From: an uncultured Bacteroidia bacterium
GTDB lineage: Bacteria; Bacteroidota; Bacteroidia; Bacteroidales; UBA932
Direction: 5' to 3'
Length of the DNA: 63,651 nt
Assembly: GCA_902784435.1 (NCBI GenBank)
Contig: CACZUR010000011.1
Coordinates: forward strand, 1-63,651
Below the pieces are notes generated by a model. The model worked only from the letters and a program-made list of their open reading frames with translations, did no database searches and was not told the origin of the DNA. Below, piece by piece: positions 7,573 through 61,271 of this stretch. Made by a program: the position numbers and the translations under genes. Numbering within the stretch: position 1 is the first letter of the stretch; the number at the start of each line of letters is the position of its first letter.

Positions 7573-7945
7573 GCCGCTGTACATACCCCCCCCCGGAACC
7601 ACGTCCCAGCCGCTGCACATACCAGGTATGTACACGAAATCGGCCTCCCAGCGCGTTCTGGCTGTTCATACCTCCCCCGAAACCGCCTTCACCCCGCTGT
7701 ACATACCAGGTATGTACACGAAATCGGCCTTCCAGCGCGTTCTGGCTGTACATACCTCTGCCGGAACCCCGTCCTGGCCCGTCCCAGCCGCTGTACATAC
7801 CAGGTATGTACACGAAATCGGCCTTCCAGCGCGTTCTGGCTGTACATACCTCCCACGAAACCGCCGTCACCCCGCTGTACATACCAGGTATGTACACGAA
7901 ATCGGCCCTCCAGCGCGTTCCAGCTGTACATACCTCCCCCGAAAT
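7573..7945. repeat. Tandem palindrome array B (84-94 bp units)
   Basis: Four units each contain the perfect palindrome GTACATACCAGGTATGTAC (first copy with one change) at about 7615, 7699, 7793 and 7877, i.e. spacings of 84, 94 and 84. Between palindromes a conserved block reads CGAAATCGGCCTTCCAGCG then CGTTCTGGCTGTACATACC. Thus each block is also a hairpin with 10-bp arms GGTATGTACA/TGTACATACC enclosing a 28-base loop with ATCGGCC. Partial TGTACATACC copies flank the array. It creates long repetitive ORFs on both strands that I do not consider genes. Confidence 0.9.
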
Positions 7946-21852: not shown

Positions 21853-21888
21853 GCGCGGGCACACAGGGGGGCGTTTTCGTGCCCGTGC
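21853..21888. repeat. GC-rich hairpin C, left copy
   Basis: Arms GCGGGCAC and GTGCCCG(T) enclose the 16-base loop ACAGGGGGGCGTTTTC. It is the same element, in the same orientation, as the three tandem copies on the other side of the transposase-like gene (22964-23103). Confidence 0.85.
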
Positions 21889-21899
21889 GATGGTGGCCA

Positions 21900-21963
21900 G
21901 TGAAACGAAGTGTTTCCGGAGGTAGAGAATTGGGGCGATACATCTGGAAACACTTCGTTTCAC
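21900..21963. repeat. 64-bp palindrome D beside the RAYT-like gene
   Basis: An 18-bp perfect inverted repeat, GTGAAACGAAGTGTTTCC (21900-21917) and its complement (21946-21963), extended inward by six imperfectly paired bases (GGAGGT/ACATCT), leaving a 16-base loop (21924-21939, AGAGAATTGGGGCGAT). The total is 24+16+24. It lies 26 bases beyond the stop of the minus-strand RAYT-like gene. Two palindromes inside coding genes (46208-46271 and 61125-61176) align with its inner 44 bases. Confidence 0.88.
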
Positions 21964-21989: not shown

Positions 21990-22925
21990 TCAGAACGATG
22001 GTGCGCCGTCGGCCGGTACCGGAAAAAGGCGCTCTACCTCTGCAGGAGTCAGGCGAAGAACTTGCGTTATCTGACGATTGGAGGAAGCGAGACGTTGTTT
22101 CATCATCTTGGCGGCCTGCAGGCGCTGCGCATAACTCAGATCTTTTAGCATCGTTCCCGGGAACCAGGATGCCAGAATCTGGAATATTTCTTCGCTGGGA
22201 ATCTGGATACTCTCTCCGAGAAGACGGGCCATTTCGATATCGGCCTCTCCCCTTCTGGTAAGCAGAGAAAAATACTGATTGGCGCTGTTGAAAAGGATTT
22301 CGGTGATGCCGAACTGAACGAAACTTCTTCTGAGAATCATGCCGTCTTCGACTCTGTAATGAGACGGAAGATTTACGTTGTGAGACCTGCAGATGCTCCT
22401 CTTTTCCCGAATACTGATCAATGGAAACGCAATCCCCTCCTTCTGTAACCAGAGGTTCCCGTTGAAAAACAGATTGGCCGATCCCCATGGGTATCCGGTC
22501 GGCATACTGTCCCGCCGCGCAACATACGCATTGCGATCAGTGTAGGCGACCTCGTTTCTGAATTGCTTCAAATCCTGAACACGATCTATCCGGATTTCCC
22601 ACTTTTTGAGGGACGGCTTTCCCAACGAAAGTTGGTACTTCCGCTCCAGGTCGTGCAATTGATCGGCAAATGCGATGGCTCTTTCATAAGTACCGCTGCC
22701 CATAATATGATGATGGCTGTTCATTTGTATGTCATCCACTATTAAAAAGTTGGAACGCGCTGCTGAAATTGCCAATAAATTGGTTCCGACGATAAATTCG
22801 TCCCTGCTTTCATACGGCATCCAGTCCAAATTCTCCGTAGTGATGAAATAGAATGGACCTTTTTCAATAAAAGACCGTTCACACTCCCGTTCCCGGTCCC
22901 AAAAATCGTTTCTTTCGTAAGACAT
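21990..22925 (-). CDS. RAYT-like Y1 (HUH) transposase-related protein
   Basis: Resembles REP-associated tyrosine transposases (IS200-like Y1 fold), which nick single-stranded REP hairpins. The N-terminal domain starts F-Y-F-I-T-T-E and reaches the metal-binding HUH-type motif as M-N-S-H-H-H-I-M (His71 and His73). The helix with the presumed nucleophile reads QFRNEVAYTDRNAYVARRDS (Tyr128 or Tyr134). It is followed by the family's Y-P-W-G-S-A-N-L-F-F (145-154). The remaining 155 residues, ending in an HTH-like KMMKQRLASSNRQITQVLRL, are an extra C-terminal domain seen in Bacteroidota versions. Flanking C hairpins on both sides and palindrome D at the 3' end fit a RAYT-REP unit. It has no other transposon features. 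Family call is from motifs only. Confidence 0.72.
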   Translation of the reverse strand: MSYERNDFWDRERECERSFIEKGPFYFITTENLDWMPYESRDEFIVGTNLLAISAARSNFLIVDDIQMNSHHHIMGSGTYERAIAFADQLHDLERKYQLSLGKPSLKKWEIRIDRVQDLKQFRNEVAYTDRNAYVARRDSMPTGYPWGSANLFFNGNLWLQKEGIAFPLISIREKRSICRSHNVNLPSHYRVEDGMILRRSFVQFGITEILFNSANQYFSLLTRRGEADIEMARLLGESIQIPSEEIFQILASWFPGTMLKDLSYAQRLQAAKMMKQRLASSNRQITQVLRLTPAEVERLFPVPADGAPSF

Positions 22926-45874: not shown

Positions 45875-47731
45875 TTAGTTTAAGATTGAATTTACAAATA
45901 TCGTCAAGGCCAGCATATCGGCCGCTCCCCCGGGGGAAATCCCCTCGGCAGCGTACCTGCGGCACATTTCTTCCAGCGGGCCGATGCTGCTTCCGTCATG
46001 CTCAGCACTTCCGTCATGCCCAGCACTGTCGTCATGCCCGGCCTTTCCGTCATGCCCGGCCCGACCGGGCATCTGTTCCAGTAGTCTCCGGGCTTCCTCC
46101 TTCACCTGCTGCGCCCGCACAGGACCCGCGCGGTGCAGCACGCAAGTATCGTCCAGCATGGACATAATCCGGAGCAGCGTCTTCTGCCGGGCGAAGGCAT
46201 CCTGCCATGCGGCAGAGGTGTTTTCAGAGGCTGAAAAGAGGGCCGATGCCTCTGAAAACACCTCTGCCGCACGGCCATTCTCCTCGAGGCAATGGCGGTA
46301 ATACGGCAACCAGTCCCGGAAAAGGGGCTCGTAGCCGGAAGCCGCCAAGGCACGGGCACCCACCAGCGTTTTATCTAAGTTACTGTTTTTCAACTGATTA
46401 CGCAATATGCTCCCGGTCAAATCGACCAGAGAAGATTGCATAACATCCTCATTTTTAACCACATAGCAAAAACGGGCAAAAACGTTCAGGAACAGTCCCA
46501 GGCAAAAAATGGCACCCCGGTGGGTATTAACCCCGCCGGTAGAGGCCAGCATCGCCTCTTCGGCATCCCGTCCCAGCTGCTGCAACGCCTCCGGAGAAGC
46601 GGCCAGGGCCATCCTGGGCCAGAAGGGGCGCAGGGCGCGGATTCCTGCAAGCATGGTTCCGTAATCCATGTCCGTATGGGCGCCGTTTCCGTCCGGCCCC
46701 ACCAAACCGGGCTTACAAGGGGTATCCAGTTCCATCCGGAGGGCTCTGTCGGCCAGCGCGGCCACCAAATAGGGACGCGAGGACGCAGGACATAGAGCCG
46801 ATGCCGCCGAGAACCTGCCTTGCGCCAAAGACGCCCGCACAGCGGAAGCCGAAACGGCGTTCAGACGCGGAATCTCCACCACATCCAGGGGCAGGACTTC
46901 CAGCATCAGCCGGTTATAGCGGTTGGTGAGCGGATCGGAGGGTTCCGAGCCGACAAAGCGGACGGTGGCGTTCAGGGCCGGGGCGATCCATCGGCCAAAG
47001 AGGTCCAGATCCAGGCGCATCTGCGTTTCCGAGGCCTCGGACAGGTCCTTGAGGAAATAGGTAGGGAAAGTGGCGGCGGAAATGGCATAGGCCGATCCTT
47101 CCAGAACCACAACGGGGTGCTGCGAGCGGGAAACCACCGATGGCGCAGCGGCACGAATCATTTCCAGACGTTCCGCATAGGGAAAGTCGGAGCGGTCTTC
47201 GGCCACGGGAATCACAAACAGGCGGTCTACCCGGGCAGCGGCCTGTTCCAGCAGGTATAAATGGCCTCGCGTAAAGGGATTGGCATTCATCACCACCACA
47301 CCGCAGCGTCCGGCTCCGGCGAAAGAGCGAAGATAAGTACAGTACTGCTCCAGTCCCCTGCCCCTTTCCATGAGAATGGCCAGCGGGGCAGCGGCCAGCA
47401 GCCGGAAGCCCAGGCTTTCGAAAATGGCCTGGTTTTCAGGTTTGGTGAATACCTTCAGAGGACCTGCGCCATGCTCACTGATGATGCGGGAGACGAGCGG
47501 GGCCACCAGCCCTTCCGAACGGGCTTCCGGCGCTACGGCCACGGCCTTGATGATGTCTCCCGACAGACCTGCCCCGGCGATGATGTCCCCATCGGCATTC
47601 CGGAAGGCATAATAGGAATCCAGCGGTTCCATTCGAAGCCCGTTGGCCCCGAGGAACCGCTGTACCTGATTGCGGAAGAAAGGAGACCGCAAAGGGACCT
47701 CCTGTATGTCTTGTTCGCCGTATAATTTCAT
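45875..47731 (-). CDS. CitC-CitG fusion: citrate lyase ligase plus triphosphoribosyl-dephospho-CoA synthase
   Basis: A 618-residue bifunctional maturation enzyme. Residues about 1-345 are CitC: a GNAT-like start (A-G-A-G-L-S-G-D-I-I-K) and the nucleotidyltransferase M-N-A-N-P-F-T-R-G-H. This part acetylates the lyase prosthetic group. Residues about 345-618 are CitG: ALRMELDTPCKPGLVGPDGN, G-G-V-N-T-H-R-G-A-I-F, G-I-S-P-G-G-A-A-D. This makes the prosthetic-group precursor from ATP and dephospho-CoA. CitG is expanded by two palindrome-derived inserts, around residues 487-508 and 553-580. Start ATG 47731 (MKLYGEQ). No lyase subunits (citD, citE, citF) occur in the window. Confidence 0.9.
   Translation of the reverse strand: MKLYGEQDIQEVPLRSPFFRNQVQRFLGANGLRMEPLDSYYAFRNADGDIIAGAGLSGDIIKAVAVAPEARSEGLVAPLVSRIISEHGAGPLKVFTKPENQAIFESLGFRLLAAAPLAILMERGRGLEQYCTYLRSFAGAGRCGVVVMNANPFTRGHLYLLEQAAARVDRLFVIPVAEDRSDFPYAERLEMIRAAAPSVVSRSQHPVVVLEGSAYAISAATFPTYFLKDLSEASETQMRLDLDLFGRWIAPALNATVRFVGSEPSDPLTNRYNRLMLEVLPLDVVEIPRLNAVSASAVRASLAQGRFSAASALCPASSRPYLVAALADRALRMELDTPCKPGLVGPDGNGAHTDMDYGTMLAGIRALRPFWPRMALAASPEALQQLGRDAEEAMLASTGGVNTHRGAIFCLGLFLNVFARFCYVVKNEDVMQSSLVDLTGSILRNQLKNSNLDKTLVGARALAASGYEPLFRDWLPYYRHCLEENGRAAEVFSEASALFSASENTSAAWQDAFARQKTLLRIMSMLDDTCVLHRAGPVRAQQVKEEARRLLEQMPGRAGHDGKAGHDDSAGHDGSAEHDGSSIGPLEEMCRRYAAEGISPGGAADMLALTIFVNSILN
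45993..46072. repeat. 18-bp tandem repeats plus palindrome inside CitC-CitG
   Basis: Four 18-base units of type CCGTCATGCYCRGC end in the hairpin ATGCCCGG-CCCGA-CCGGGCAT (46052-46072). On the coding strand this gives repeats of G-H-D-G-(K/S)-A. The palindrome is the same element as at 59224 and 60756. Confidence 0.88.
46208..46271. repeat. 64-bp palindrome inside CitC-CitG
   Basis: A perfect 24-bp inverted repeat (46208-46231 and 46248-46271; inner end GTGTTTTCAGAGGC) with a 16-base loop TGAAAAGAGGGCCGAT. It encodes A-A-E-V-F-S-E-A-S-A-L-F-S-A-S-E in frame. Its inner 44 bases align gap-free with palindromes D (21900-21963) and 61125-61176. Confidence 0.92.
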
Positions 47732-47784
47732 CGCCAGCAAGCTTTCCAATACTCCCGGTTCCGCCTGCTATGGAATCACGGTGC

Positions 47785-58817: not shown

Positions 58818-60043
58818 CGGTCGCCGTCATAGGGGCCGGAGCCGCCGGTTGTTTCTGTGCCGCCCAGTTAAGGAGACTGGCGCCGGAGCTGGCTGTGACG
58901 GTGTTCGAGGCCGGGTCCCGGCCCCTGGCCAAGGTGGCCATCACGGGCGGGGGCCGATGCAACCTGACCAATGACTTCCAGGGCATCCGCTCGCTGGGGG
59001 AAGCCTATCCCCGGGGCGAAAGGGTGATGCAGCGCGCCCTGAAAGCGTTTTCGGAGCAGGACACCGTAGCGTGGTTCACGGAGCGGGGCGTTCCCTGCGT
59101 CCTGCAGCCGGACCACTGCTGGTTCCCCCGCTCACAGGATGCCATGGACGTTGTCCGCTGCCTGGAACGCGGCATGAAGGGGGTGGAACTGCGCCTGGGA
59201 ACCCGGGTGCAAAGTATAGAAAGATGCCCGGTCAAGCCGGGCATGACGGGGATGACGTGCATGACGGACATGACGGGGATGACGGTGGACGGAGAACCCT
59301 TCGACTATGTGGTGGTGACTACCGGCGGAGCGCCGCAGTTTCCCTTTTTGAGGGCCCTGGAACTGGAAATCGTTCCGCCTGTCCCCTCCCTCTTCACTTT
59401 CAACATTCCGGACAAAAGCCTGACCGCCCTCATGGGACTGGTCGTCGATGCCCAGTTGAGTCTTCAAGGTACCGCATACAAAGCCGCAGGGCCGCTCCTC
59501 ATCACGGACTGGGGCCTGAGCGGGCCCGCCACCCTGAAGCTCTCTTCCTATGCCGCCCGGCATCTGGCGCAGCAGGGTTACAAGGGAACGCTCCTGGTCA
59601 ACTGGCTGGGGAAGGCGGAAAACCTGGCGCGGGAGTGGCTGCAAAAAACGGCCGCAGAAAACCCTCAAAAGCAGATTTCCTCCGTGCATCCGGTGCAGCA
59701 GCGCCTGTGGATGCACCTGCTCGCCAAAGCCGGACTGAGGCCGCAGATGCGCTGGGCCGAACTGGGCAGCAAAGGGATGAACCGGCTCACGGCCATCCTA
59801 ACGGCCGATTCTTATCCCATCAGCGGGAAGAGCCGCTTCCGGGAAGAATTCGTGACGGCGGGGGGCGTGGCCCTGTCCAACGTGAACCTGAGCACTCTGG
59901 AAAGCAAACAACACCCCGGGCTGTATTTTGCCGGCGAAGTGCTGGATATCGATGCCATCACGGGCGGATTCAACCTGCAGGCTGCCTGGAGTACAGGCTA
60001 CGTCTGCGCCCAAAGCCTTGCCAGGAAGGCTACAGCCGGATAA
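58811..60043 (+). CDS. BaiN/HI0933-like FAD-dependent oxidoreductase
   Basis: A 410-residue flavoprotein. Dinucleotide-binding start A-V-I-G-A-G-A-A-G-C, ISG-type G-G-G-R-C-N-L-T-N, and the C-terminal SRFREEFVTAGGVALSNVNL followed by L-D-I-D-A-I-T-G-G-F-N-L-Q. Function of most members is unknown; BaiN is implicated in bile-acid dehydroxylation. A palindrome and 9-base tandem repeats (59222-59285) add a run of M-T-x triplets near residues 137-158. It overlaps the convergent GmhB part by 14 bases. Confidence 0.9.
   Translation: MLTVAVIGAGAAGCFCAAQLRRLAPELAVTVFEAGSRPLAKVAITGGGRCNLTNDFQGIRSLGEAYPRGERVMQRALKAFSEQDTVAWFTERGVPCVLQPDHCWFPRSQDAMDVVRCLERGMKGVELRLGTRVQSIERCPVKPGMTGMTCMTDMTGMTVDGEPFDYVVVTTGGAPQFPFLRALELEIVPPVPSLFTFNIPDKSLTALMGLVVDAQLSLQGTAYKAAGPLLITDWGLSGPATLKLSSYAARHLAQQGYKGTLLVNWLGKAENLAREWLQKTAAENPQKQISSVHPVQQRLWMHLLAKAGLRPQMRWAELGSKGMNRLTAILTADSYPISGKSRFREEFVTAGGVALSNVNLSTLESKQHPGLYFAGEVLDIDAITGGFNLQAAWSTGYVCAQSLARKATAG
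59222..59285. repeat. Palindrome plus 9-bp tandem repeats inside the flavoprotein gene
   Basis: ATGCCCGG-TCAAG-CCGGGCAT-GACG (59224-59248) runs into five 9-base units of type ATGACGGGG, encoding M-T-G, M-T-C, M-T-D, M-T-G, M-T-V. The palindrome is identical in stem to those at 46052 and 60756. Length kept in frame. Confidence 0.9.
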
Positions 60044-61271
60044 AACCGATCCCGCAATTCTTCGCGAAGGCAGCGTCGCTGTCCGCATCGCCCAGCATCA
60101 CGGACTGTTCAGGGACGATATCCGGGAACAGGCCGCAGGCCTCGTAGAACATGCCCGGATGGGGTTTCCGTCGGGGATCCTGGTCCGAAACGGCCGTGCA
60201 GCACAGGATCAGGTCTATGCGGCCGCCCGCCTCCAGTACATCCGCCATCATCTGTGCGTGAATAGCGGAAAGATCTTCATCCGTCATCAGGCCCTTCCCC
60301 ACCCCACGCTGATTGGTAACCAGGATGATATGCCGATACTTGGCCGCCCAGCGCGGGAGCTCCTGCAGCACGCCGGGCATCCACTGCCACTGCGCCCGGC
60401 TTTTCACATAGTCGCCGGGCAGATGACGGTTGAGCACACCGTCCCGGTCCAGGAAAAGGGTGCTGGCTTGCGCCTGTAAAACGGCCTCAGAAGCCTTTTG
60501 GACAGCGAAATACGCTGGCAAGGCCCACTGCGCCAGCGCATAATCTTCGGGGATGCCGATGTCAATGAAATAGGCATCGCTCACCCATCCGCCTATCTCT
60601 CCGATAGCCGCCCCCGGTTCCAATACCTCCTTTTCGAAGGAGAACTTCTCGGGCAGGCAACTCAAATCCAGCCGGCTGCGGTCGATGGCATAGACCCCGC
60701 CGTTGATCAGCCCTTCGGCGCAGGGCCGTTTTTCGTGGAAGGCGGTGACGGTAAGATGCCCGGTCGGGCCGGGCATGACGCTAACGGCCCCGTAGCGGCT
60801 GAAGTCCTTCATGGGCTTCAGGGCCAGGGTAACGGGCATCCGGAAAGGCATCCGGTCCAGGTCTACGGGGAAAAAAGTATCTCCGTTCACCACGAACACC
60901 TGCTGCTCCCGGCACAGGGAAAGCGCCAGGCGGATGCCGCCCCCGGTTCCGAGGGGCGTCTCTTCCACGGCAAAATCATAAGAAAAAGGCCATTCCTTAG
61001 CCCGGACGAAAGCCATCACCTGCTCCCGCAGATACCCTACGGAAAACACCACATGCGTCACCCCATACCGCCCCAGCCATGCCAGCAAATACTGCAAAAA
61101 AGGCACTTCCCCCTCTCCGGAAGCGTCTGTCCTCCCGGAGGCATCGGCCTTCTTACTTGCCTCCGGGAGGACAGACCCTCCGGAGGCAATCGGCGCCAAC
61201 GTTTTGGGGATTTCATGGATGACGGAACGGAGGCGGGTACCCAGGCCGCCGCAGAGGACTATAACTTCCAC
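60030..61271 (-). CDS. HddC-GmhB fusion: heptose-1-P guanylyltransferase plus heptose bisphosphatase
   Basis: A 413-residue protein for GDP-D-glycero-alpha-D-manno-heptose synthesis. Residues about 1-255 are a nucleotidyltransferase (VIVLCGGLGTRLRSVIHEIP, V-V-N-G-D-T-F-F). Residues about 265-413 are a GmhB-type HAD phosphatase (T-L-F-L-D-R-D-G-V-L-N, V-T-N-Q-R-G-V, K-P-H-P-G-M, L-G-D-A-D-S-D). Compared with the family, about 26 residues are inserted between A-P-I and P-F-L-Q-Y-L-L, encoded by the palindrome at 61125-61176, and a short insert near residue 168 comes from 60756-60780. It overlaps hddA by 13 bases. Confidence 0.87.
   Translation of the reverse strand: MEVIVLCGGLGTRLRSVIHEIPKTLAPIASGGSVLPEASKKADASGRTDASGEGEVPFLQYLLAWLGRYGVTHVVFSVGYLREQVMAFVRAKEWPFSYDFAVEETPLGTGGGIRLALSLCREQQVFVVNGDTFFPVDLDRMPFRMPVTLALKPMKDFSRYGAVSVMPGPTGHLTVTAFHEKRPCAEGLINGGVYAIDRSRLDLSCLPEKFSFEKEVLEPGAAIGEIGGWVSDAYFIDIGIPEDYALAQWALPAYFAVQKASEAVLQAQASTLFLDRDGVLNRHLPGDYVKSRAQWQWMPGVLQELPRWAAKYRHIILVTNQRGVGKGLMTDEDLSAIHAQMMADVLEAGGRIDLILCCTAVSDQDPRRKPHPGMFYEACGLFPDIVPEQSVMLGDADSDAAFAKNCGIGFIRL
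60754..60780. repeat. Palindrome inside the HddC part
   Basis: AGATGCCCGG-TCGGG-CCGGGCAT-GACG (stem 60756-60763 and 60769-60776), the same sequence as the element in CitC-CitG read on the other strand. It encodes V-M-P-G-P-T-G-H-L-T on the coding strand. Confidence 0.88.
61125..61176. repeat. 18-bp palindrome with 16-base loop inside the HddC part
   Basis: GTCTGTCCTCCCGGAGGC (61125-61142) and its exact complement (61159-61176), loop ATCGGCCTTCTTACTT. Further imperfect pairing extends each arm by about six bases to the 24+16+24 layout. The gene's coding strand reads the complement, with the loop ending GGCCGAT. A third GGAGG copy follows at 61180. Confidence 0.92.

Follow-up and report, generated by a model that had tools for sequence, protein, structure and literature searches.

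The palindrome TGAAAAGAGGGCCGAT, located at positions 46208-46271 on the forward strand of the window (the whole stretch of DNA analysed, 63,651 nt), is quite probably a copy of a non-autonomous mobile 64-bp hairpin element that sits in frame in tolerant protein loops. It has 24-nt arms and a 16-nt loop. All 24 pairs are formed, and according to the inverted-repeat analysis the pairing extends to 28-nt arms at 96%. Its host gene (45875-47749, reverse strand, 624 aa) encodes a fusion of citrate lyase ligase (CitC) with the triphosphoribosyl-dephospho-CoA synthase CitG. The opposite-strand reading of the palindrome is AAEVFSEASALFSASENTSAA, residues 494-514 of CitC-CitG. The claim of the preliminary description that the element lies inside a protein gene thus holds as far as the in-frame position in this ORF is concerned, while its claim of translation can be presumed from the open frame.

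The window contains 2 further members of the family. The second one, palindrome D (GGGGCGAT, 21900-21963, forward strand), has an aberrant core and is located between an SLT/LysM gene and a RAYT/Y1-transposase-like gene (21990-22925, reverse strand, 311 aa). The preliminary description had reported both palindromes as 64 bp long with a 24-16-24 layout, which is borne out by the inverted-repeat analysis. It had also reported that about three quarters of their inner 44 bases are identical and that differences in the stem are often compensated; by hand count 33 of the 44 bases agree (75%), and several stem differences are indeed compensated on the opposite arm. Palindrome D has 2 mismatches in 25-nt arms and deviates from the other 37 exact copies of the genome at the near-invariant positions 24, 36, and 41. 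The third member lies in frame within a nucleotidyltransferase/HAD-phosphatase gene (60030-61271, reverse strand), which combines an NTP transferase and a HAD-type phosphatase domain. Earlier placed at 61125-61176, it does belong to the family, but the covariance-model match puts it better at 61119-61182 (reverse strand), which gives the full 64 bp; the inverted-repeat listing gives 61122-61179. The palindromes at 46208-46271, 21900-21963, and 61122-61179 stand first among the 15 inverted repeats listed in the window.

Copy number and structure of the family

DNA searches of the own genome (G000; 2,232,861 bases, or 2.23 Mb, in 42 contigs) return hairpins with differing stems and the common loop GGCCGAT. 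A covariance model was seeded with 9 members having at least 14 of 26 positions paired, in an ungapped alignment over 64 columns. The seed includes the 3 members of the window, and the scores of the 9 seed members themselves prove little because the model was built from them. With 150 of 928 candidates scored, the model finds at least 42 places in the own genome, 33 of them in addition to the seed; these are the distinct places among 47 matches after opposite-strand duplicates and 2 partial hits were dropped. As for specificity, 36 of 40 other genomes have no match at E ≤ 0.001 (at most 129 candidates scored per genome). The palindrome family is real and goes beyond chance, and the genome scan that had been proposed as a check yields further members.

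Exactly 64 bp (24-16-24) are found in 38 of the 42 places, the others being 61, 63, 65, and 76 bp long. Loop bases 34, 35, 37, 39, and 40 do not vary among the 38 exact copies, and GGCCGAT is nearly invariant; at arm positions 1-16, Watson-Crick pairing is seen in 79-100% of the copies. G predominates at arm bases 2, 5, and 8, which results in GNN codons on one side and NCN on the opposite side. Bases outside the 64 bp are near random, with a mild preference for C/G at the borders. Pairing past the 64 bp is raised at the next 2 bases alone in the own genome (0.68; expected 0.32-0.37) and up to about 9 bases out in relatives. GC flanks the element on both sides in 7 of the 42 places; GC is, moreover, self-complementary. 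No target site duplication, which is a trait of MITEs, is evident, with direct repeats at the 64-bp border reaching 2 nt at 7 of the 42 places and 3 nt at a single one, and none longer. An Rfam scan of 4 loci returned 19 matches at E ≤ 1, all of them to microRNA families below gathering thresholds.

A sister type was also observed (L279, L221, and L255); it measures 76 bp, and its 28-nt loop, for example GTCGCTTCGCGACCCTGTCCGGGCAAAT, carries a small hairpin of its own. It is present in relatives as well as in the own genome, where the 76-bp copy L056 has a different 28-nt loop. In addition, partial tandem copies of the element or of the neighbouring peptide stand beside full elements at L052 (MetG), L029 (Fmt), L022, and L051 (PolA), as if the hairpins caused local duplication.

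Reading frame and host proteins

Genes with a Pfam match contain 37 of the 42 places. The hosts include IleS, MetG, CysS, MiaA, Fmt, PolA, DnaX, UvrD/PcrA, UvrA, and AtpG, as well as FolP, a Mur ligase, AroE, KdtA, an Fe-S protein, and CitG. Among the remaining places, 2 are intergenic by their called neighbours (palindrome D and L045), 2 are undecided (L046 and L050), and 1 (L041) precedes the likely start of a gyrA/parC-like gene.

All 34 exact 64-bp copies in Pfam-supported genes are read in a single phase, with element base 2 as the first codon position, although 24 are in forward and 10 in reverse orientation; in either orientation they encode a small, polar 21-residue peptide. Avoidance of stop codons alone cannot explain the single phase, because the 4 frames of the other phases are often open (in 23, 20, 12, and 7 copies, counted on 33 of the 34). 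Pooled over 92 exact copies, the 2 used readings consist of Ala, Gly, Ser, Thr, and Pro to 58% and 63%, respectively. Of the 3 copies of other lengths in Pfam-supported genes, the 76-bp one, in a WbqC-like gene, obeys the phase rule. The RsmF copy, of 63 bp, uses a different phase, and within the 61-bp SpoU copy the frame shifts.

The AlphaFold2 model of CitC-CitG, based on 26 genus sequences, has a mean pLDDT of 83.9. Insert residues 494-509 are predicted with pLDDT below 50, between 2 helices that are confident away from the insert. According to this model, the insert in CitG most likely forms a neutral, disordered surface loop.

Empty sites and distribution among relatives

The copies are regarded as insertions because relatives show empty sites. 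At the CitG site, 14 of 19 close relatives have no insert, 4 of 19 (G156, G233, G286, and G330) have the loop filled by a hairpin of the 64-bp or sister type, and 1 (G067) has a different insert; the stretch L234 (54 bases) was dropped as too short. Of 6 more distant relatives, 4 are empty at this site and 2 have other repeats. The preliminary description had named the comparison of CitG orthologues as one test of its reading; the residues are absent from the orthologues, and this test did not refute the reading.

The other hosts give a similar picture. In MiaA, 12 of 12 more distant relatives have no element on alignment, some having long loops of their own, and 3 of 9 close relatives carry an element. 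The site in the DHH gene is empty in 6 and filled in 3 of the 9 examined relatives (the empty L278 holds a different small palindrome), and 4 of 16 close relatives have the IleS site filled. As for FolP, none of the 14 more distant relatives with sequence at the site has the element on alignment (15 aligned, one partial). The host loci fetched from relatives are part of the matches listed. Empty sites together with the single phase support the earlier suggestion of a mobile palindromic element able to sit in coding sequence in frame.

The loops at the insertion sites vary in length between relatives, and the nearest relatives, at about 84-85% DNA identity over one gene, are too distant for exact borders or net length; because 64 cannot be divided evenly by 3, an insertion must add 63, 66, or another number of bases on balance. 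Quite different extra sequences are seen in the CitG loop of L067 and L068 (G017 and G005) and in the IleS loop of L075 (G019), L240, and L241; some of the alternative loop sequences read SERSEESL or SERSEASVS. Several element families may use common hot-spot loops.

Within the genus, a second model matches 37 of 399 other sampled genomes at E ≤ 1e-4 (38 of 400 with the own genome), and 12 other genomes reach 8-13 of the maximum of 13 candidates scored per genome. Within the order, none of 392 other sampled genomes matches at E ≤ 1e-5, again with 13 candidates scored per genome. One exact core pattern occurs in 39 stretches of genome_contigs from 8 assemblies, all of them titled Bacteroidales, and 5 of the 8 titles name a ruminant. 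In viral_contigs, a single exact core pattern returned 0 stretches, and a phage origin was rejected on that pattern.

To count as a same-site pair, elements from 11 genomes had to lie within 5 residues of each other and share at least 50% identity. The pairs are mutually non-independent, and many of the loci were fetched as host genes of the own genome. Of the 86 cross-genome pairs, 59 have matching orientations and 27 opposite ones. For 36 testable same-orientation exact pairs, the arm similarity of 0.540 exceeds that of pairs re-drawn from matching genomes (p = 0.0005), as does the similarity of loops (p = 0.0065), and for this reason some same-orientation copies are considered inherited. 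The arms of 20 opposite-orientation pairs (0.444) are no more alike than those of re-drawn pairs (p = 0.66). This suggests that opposite-orientation copies at the same site arose by separate insertions; spacer inversion alone is disfavoured because the arms would then have stayed alike. Among 45 elements of relatives that were fetched by score alone, 15 sit at a site filled in the own genome. The inherited IleS pair of G286 and G233 shows 2 two-sided arm differences and 1 one-sided, with 6 of 16 core bases differing by hand count; the core thus differs more than the arms, which does not fit a constrained loop in resident copies.

Pairing of the arms

Of 760 cells in the 38 exact copies, 93.9% are paired, versus 46-54% after sliding the partners, although the paired share is inflated because the search models reward pairing; a corresponding count on 9 copies used members chosen for their pairing. 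Compared with the commonest pair, both partners differ in 216 cells and a single partner in 11, and 46 cells are unpaired. Within genomes the arms differ by 0.41-0.58 and the cores by 0.06-0.26; these values and the wobble counts refer to the 92 exact 64-mers among 114 elements, the other 22 having different lengths. All within-genome comparisons together give 6898 two-sided and 1612 one-sided arm differences. Similarity of arms correlates with that of cores (Mantel r of 0.23 and 0.40 in the own genome, weaker or mixed in 4 others), and therefore the arms are partly inherited along with the core.

Template switching in hairpins, as described in the accessible text of PMC8604942 and PMC8794818, makes arms identical and inverts spacers. 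It would account for two-sided arm changes without selection. When one arm changes, the other would be rewritten from it within the hairpin; alternatively, selection for mobility might restore the match. Template switching is considered the best candidate for the cause of the covariation.

Proposed mode of spread

The element is envisaged to move as a single-stranded hairpin that would be recognised mainly via its loop and inner stem by a putative enzyme; no mobilising enzyme was found. The arms would then need only to pair and to encode small polar residues. In-frame landing would be filtered by selection on the host protein, with the used phase giving linkers rich in Ala, Gly, Ser, Thr, Pro, Asp, and Glu, and the element would be translated within that protein. 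A more far-reaching and only tentative generalisation is a class of mobile hairpins that invade proteins: faithful copying would be confined to loop and inner stem, and the outer arms would be replaced in matched pairs. Each insertion would thereby give a core enzyme a new linker peptide of equivalent structure, and strand-biased wobbles would mark the moving strand.

Neighbouring RAYT gene and other explanations

The gene at 21990-22925, which has no Pfam or NCBIfam match, is presumably RAYT-like, judging by its motif NSHHHIMG. Its vicinity to palindrome D, which ends 26 nt from it, raises the alternative of a REP-type element mobilised by this RAYT or a relative (an HUH/Y1 transposase) via a single-stranded intermediate. 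All 11 element carriers among 101 genus genomes have a RAYT homologue, but so do 74 of the 90 non-carriers. Overall, homologues are present in 85 of these 101 genomes, with 4 matches in the own genome, versus 38 of 400 for the element. The adjoining copy, in addition, is intergenic, stands on one side only, and is the one with the aberrant core; the link implied by the preliminary description is at most a candidate one. In the RAYT loci of 19 relatives, other short hairpins flank the gene on both sides in 8 cases, on one side in 6, and on neither in 5, including the closest homologue. The borders of the element, whose positions are near random apart from the mild C/G preference, have no GTAG-type tag. 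Taken together, RAYT as the mobiliser is weakened by its prevalence in non-carriers and by the survey of flanking hairpins. Next to the RAYT gene, at 21856-21885, a short hairpin CGGGCAC..GTGCCCG resembles those near a relative's RAYT (L157) and is a candidate cognate REP.

The strand bias of wobbles is also what mobilisation by RAYT predicts, with one strand folding. At arm positions 1-16, 161 of 1472 cells are non-Watson-Crick, with 72 A.C versus 18 G.T on the GGCCGAT strand; the excess of A.C holds in each of the 5 genomes with at least 6 copies and in both gene orientations. It is suggestive only, but looks as if the complementary strand, on which G.T wobbles prevail, folds alone. These counts are non-independent, as copies share ancestry, and position 17, which was left out, has 11 G.T versus 1 A.C in the own genome. 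On balance, mobilisation by RAYT is judged unlikely.

Functional cis elements, with the hairpins kept in place by selection for protein binding or for control of the host mRNA, are a still slimmer prospect. Conservation of the loop even at third codon positions, covariation of the stems, and the apparently inherited same-site copies would all suit such a role. However, the elements occur in both orientations in genes, 362 of the 400 sampled genus genomes have no match, and the hosts have no evident common function. The wobble bias, furthermore, follows the loop rather than the mRNA strand. Pairing at the RNA level was considered unlikely on the same grounds, since the bias tracks loop orientation and not gene strand.

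It is improbable, too, that insertion generates the arms from target sequence, with a mobile loop and a stem that duplicates the surrounding sequence in inverted form. The wide variation of arms relative to cores within genomes agrees with this mechanism, and the outer right arm in IleS matches the native sequence of an empty relative (rank 0 of 40). In 17 genome-site cases, however, the true arms fit empty sites no better than those of other copies do (mean rank of 16.5 of 40), which rules against target-derived arms as a general rule; PcrA was left out of this comparison, as no empty sequences matched its pattern. Finally, ancestral protein sequence or a linker made by slippage, for which the length-variable loops and the hosts with tandem partial copies might speak, is an extremely improbable source of one nucleotide core in 37 Pfam-supported gene copies from unrelated families, in both orientations and with empty orthologues.

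Comparison with known systems

Protein-coding palindromes are best known from Rickettsia and, going by the title of one original paper on Rickettsia palindromic elements (RPE), are reportedly unique to it. The mobile hairpin element proposed here has much in common with RPE, which according to the available text of PMC10969869 are about 150 bp long, with nearly half of them inserted in ORFs. As with the present element, RPE are palindromic, occur in multiple copies, lie in frame within metabolic genes that are unrelated to one another, and can be translated. In contrast, the present element is 64 bp long, belongs to Bacteroidales, lies in Pfam-supported genes in 37 of 42 places, and has a near-invariant loop and covarying arms; this comparison is one of descriptions. 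Of the RPE traits, palindromic structure and repetition (42 places) and an open in-frame peptide (34 of 34) are found, and the size of about 150 bp is not. By analogy, the Bacteroidales element would work like RPE, while differing in size, host, and covarying arms, and it is not classed as one of them.

Regarding GTAG- and CGTC-tagged REPs, PMC3733652 in its accessible portion reports CGTC repeats in Bacteroidetes among 5 phyla, as well as different REPs at about one recB site in 2 Xanthomonas species. Like the present element, these REPs are short hairpins able to lie inside genes; unlike them, the element has no tag tetranucleotide and has 24-nt arms, the CGTC stems being seemingly 8-9 bp (PMC3733652). 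With a stem of 24 bp and no CGTC at its ends, it does not have the features of a CGTC REP. Perfect inverted repeats translated in core genes also occur in Nematomorpha mitochondria, for which template switching has been proposed. Their arms both encode conserved protein and no mobile core is described in the available text (PMC6649704), whereas in the present family the arms add to the protein. Joint arm changes and spacer inversion are shared with inverted repeats homogenised by template switching, judging from the available part of PMC8604942; those, however, represent a mutation mechanism and not a mobile family.

No account of such elements in Bacteroidales was found in the open-licence literature, as searched by titles and abstract openings. 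The family provides a clear case of protein-coding palindromes in gut Bacteroidales, with hosts such as tRNA synthetases, DNA polymerase I, the clamp loader, and ATP synthase, and hundreds of related genomes allow empty, inherited, and independently refilled sites to be compared. Both the movement of the element and the way in which hairpin arms stay matched while their sequence drifts become testable in this system.

Other repeats in the window

A second set of repeats is located in the CitG gene at 45990-46075. It consists of CGTCATGCCCGGC units and a GCCCGGCCCGACCGGGC hairpin, is read as GRAGHDGKAGHDDSAGHDGS near the CitG C-terminus, and resembles intragenic CGTC-tagged REPs. These repeats are absent from the 6 more distant relatives compared at CitG, 2 of which carry other extra sequence there. 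Elsewhere in the window, 4 near-identical 21-bp palindromes TGTACATACCAGGTATGTACA lie at 7614-7896 with a spacing of 63-73 nt.
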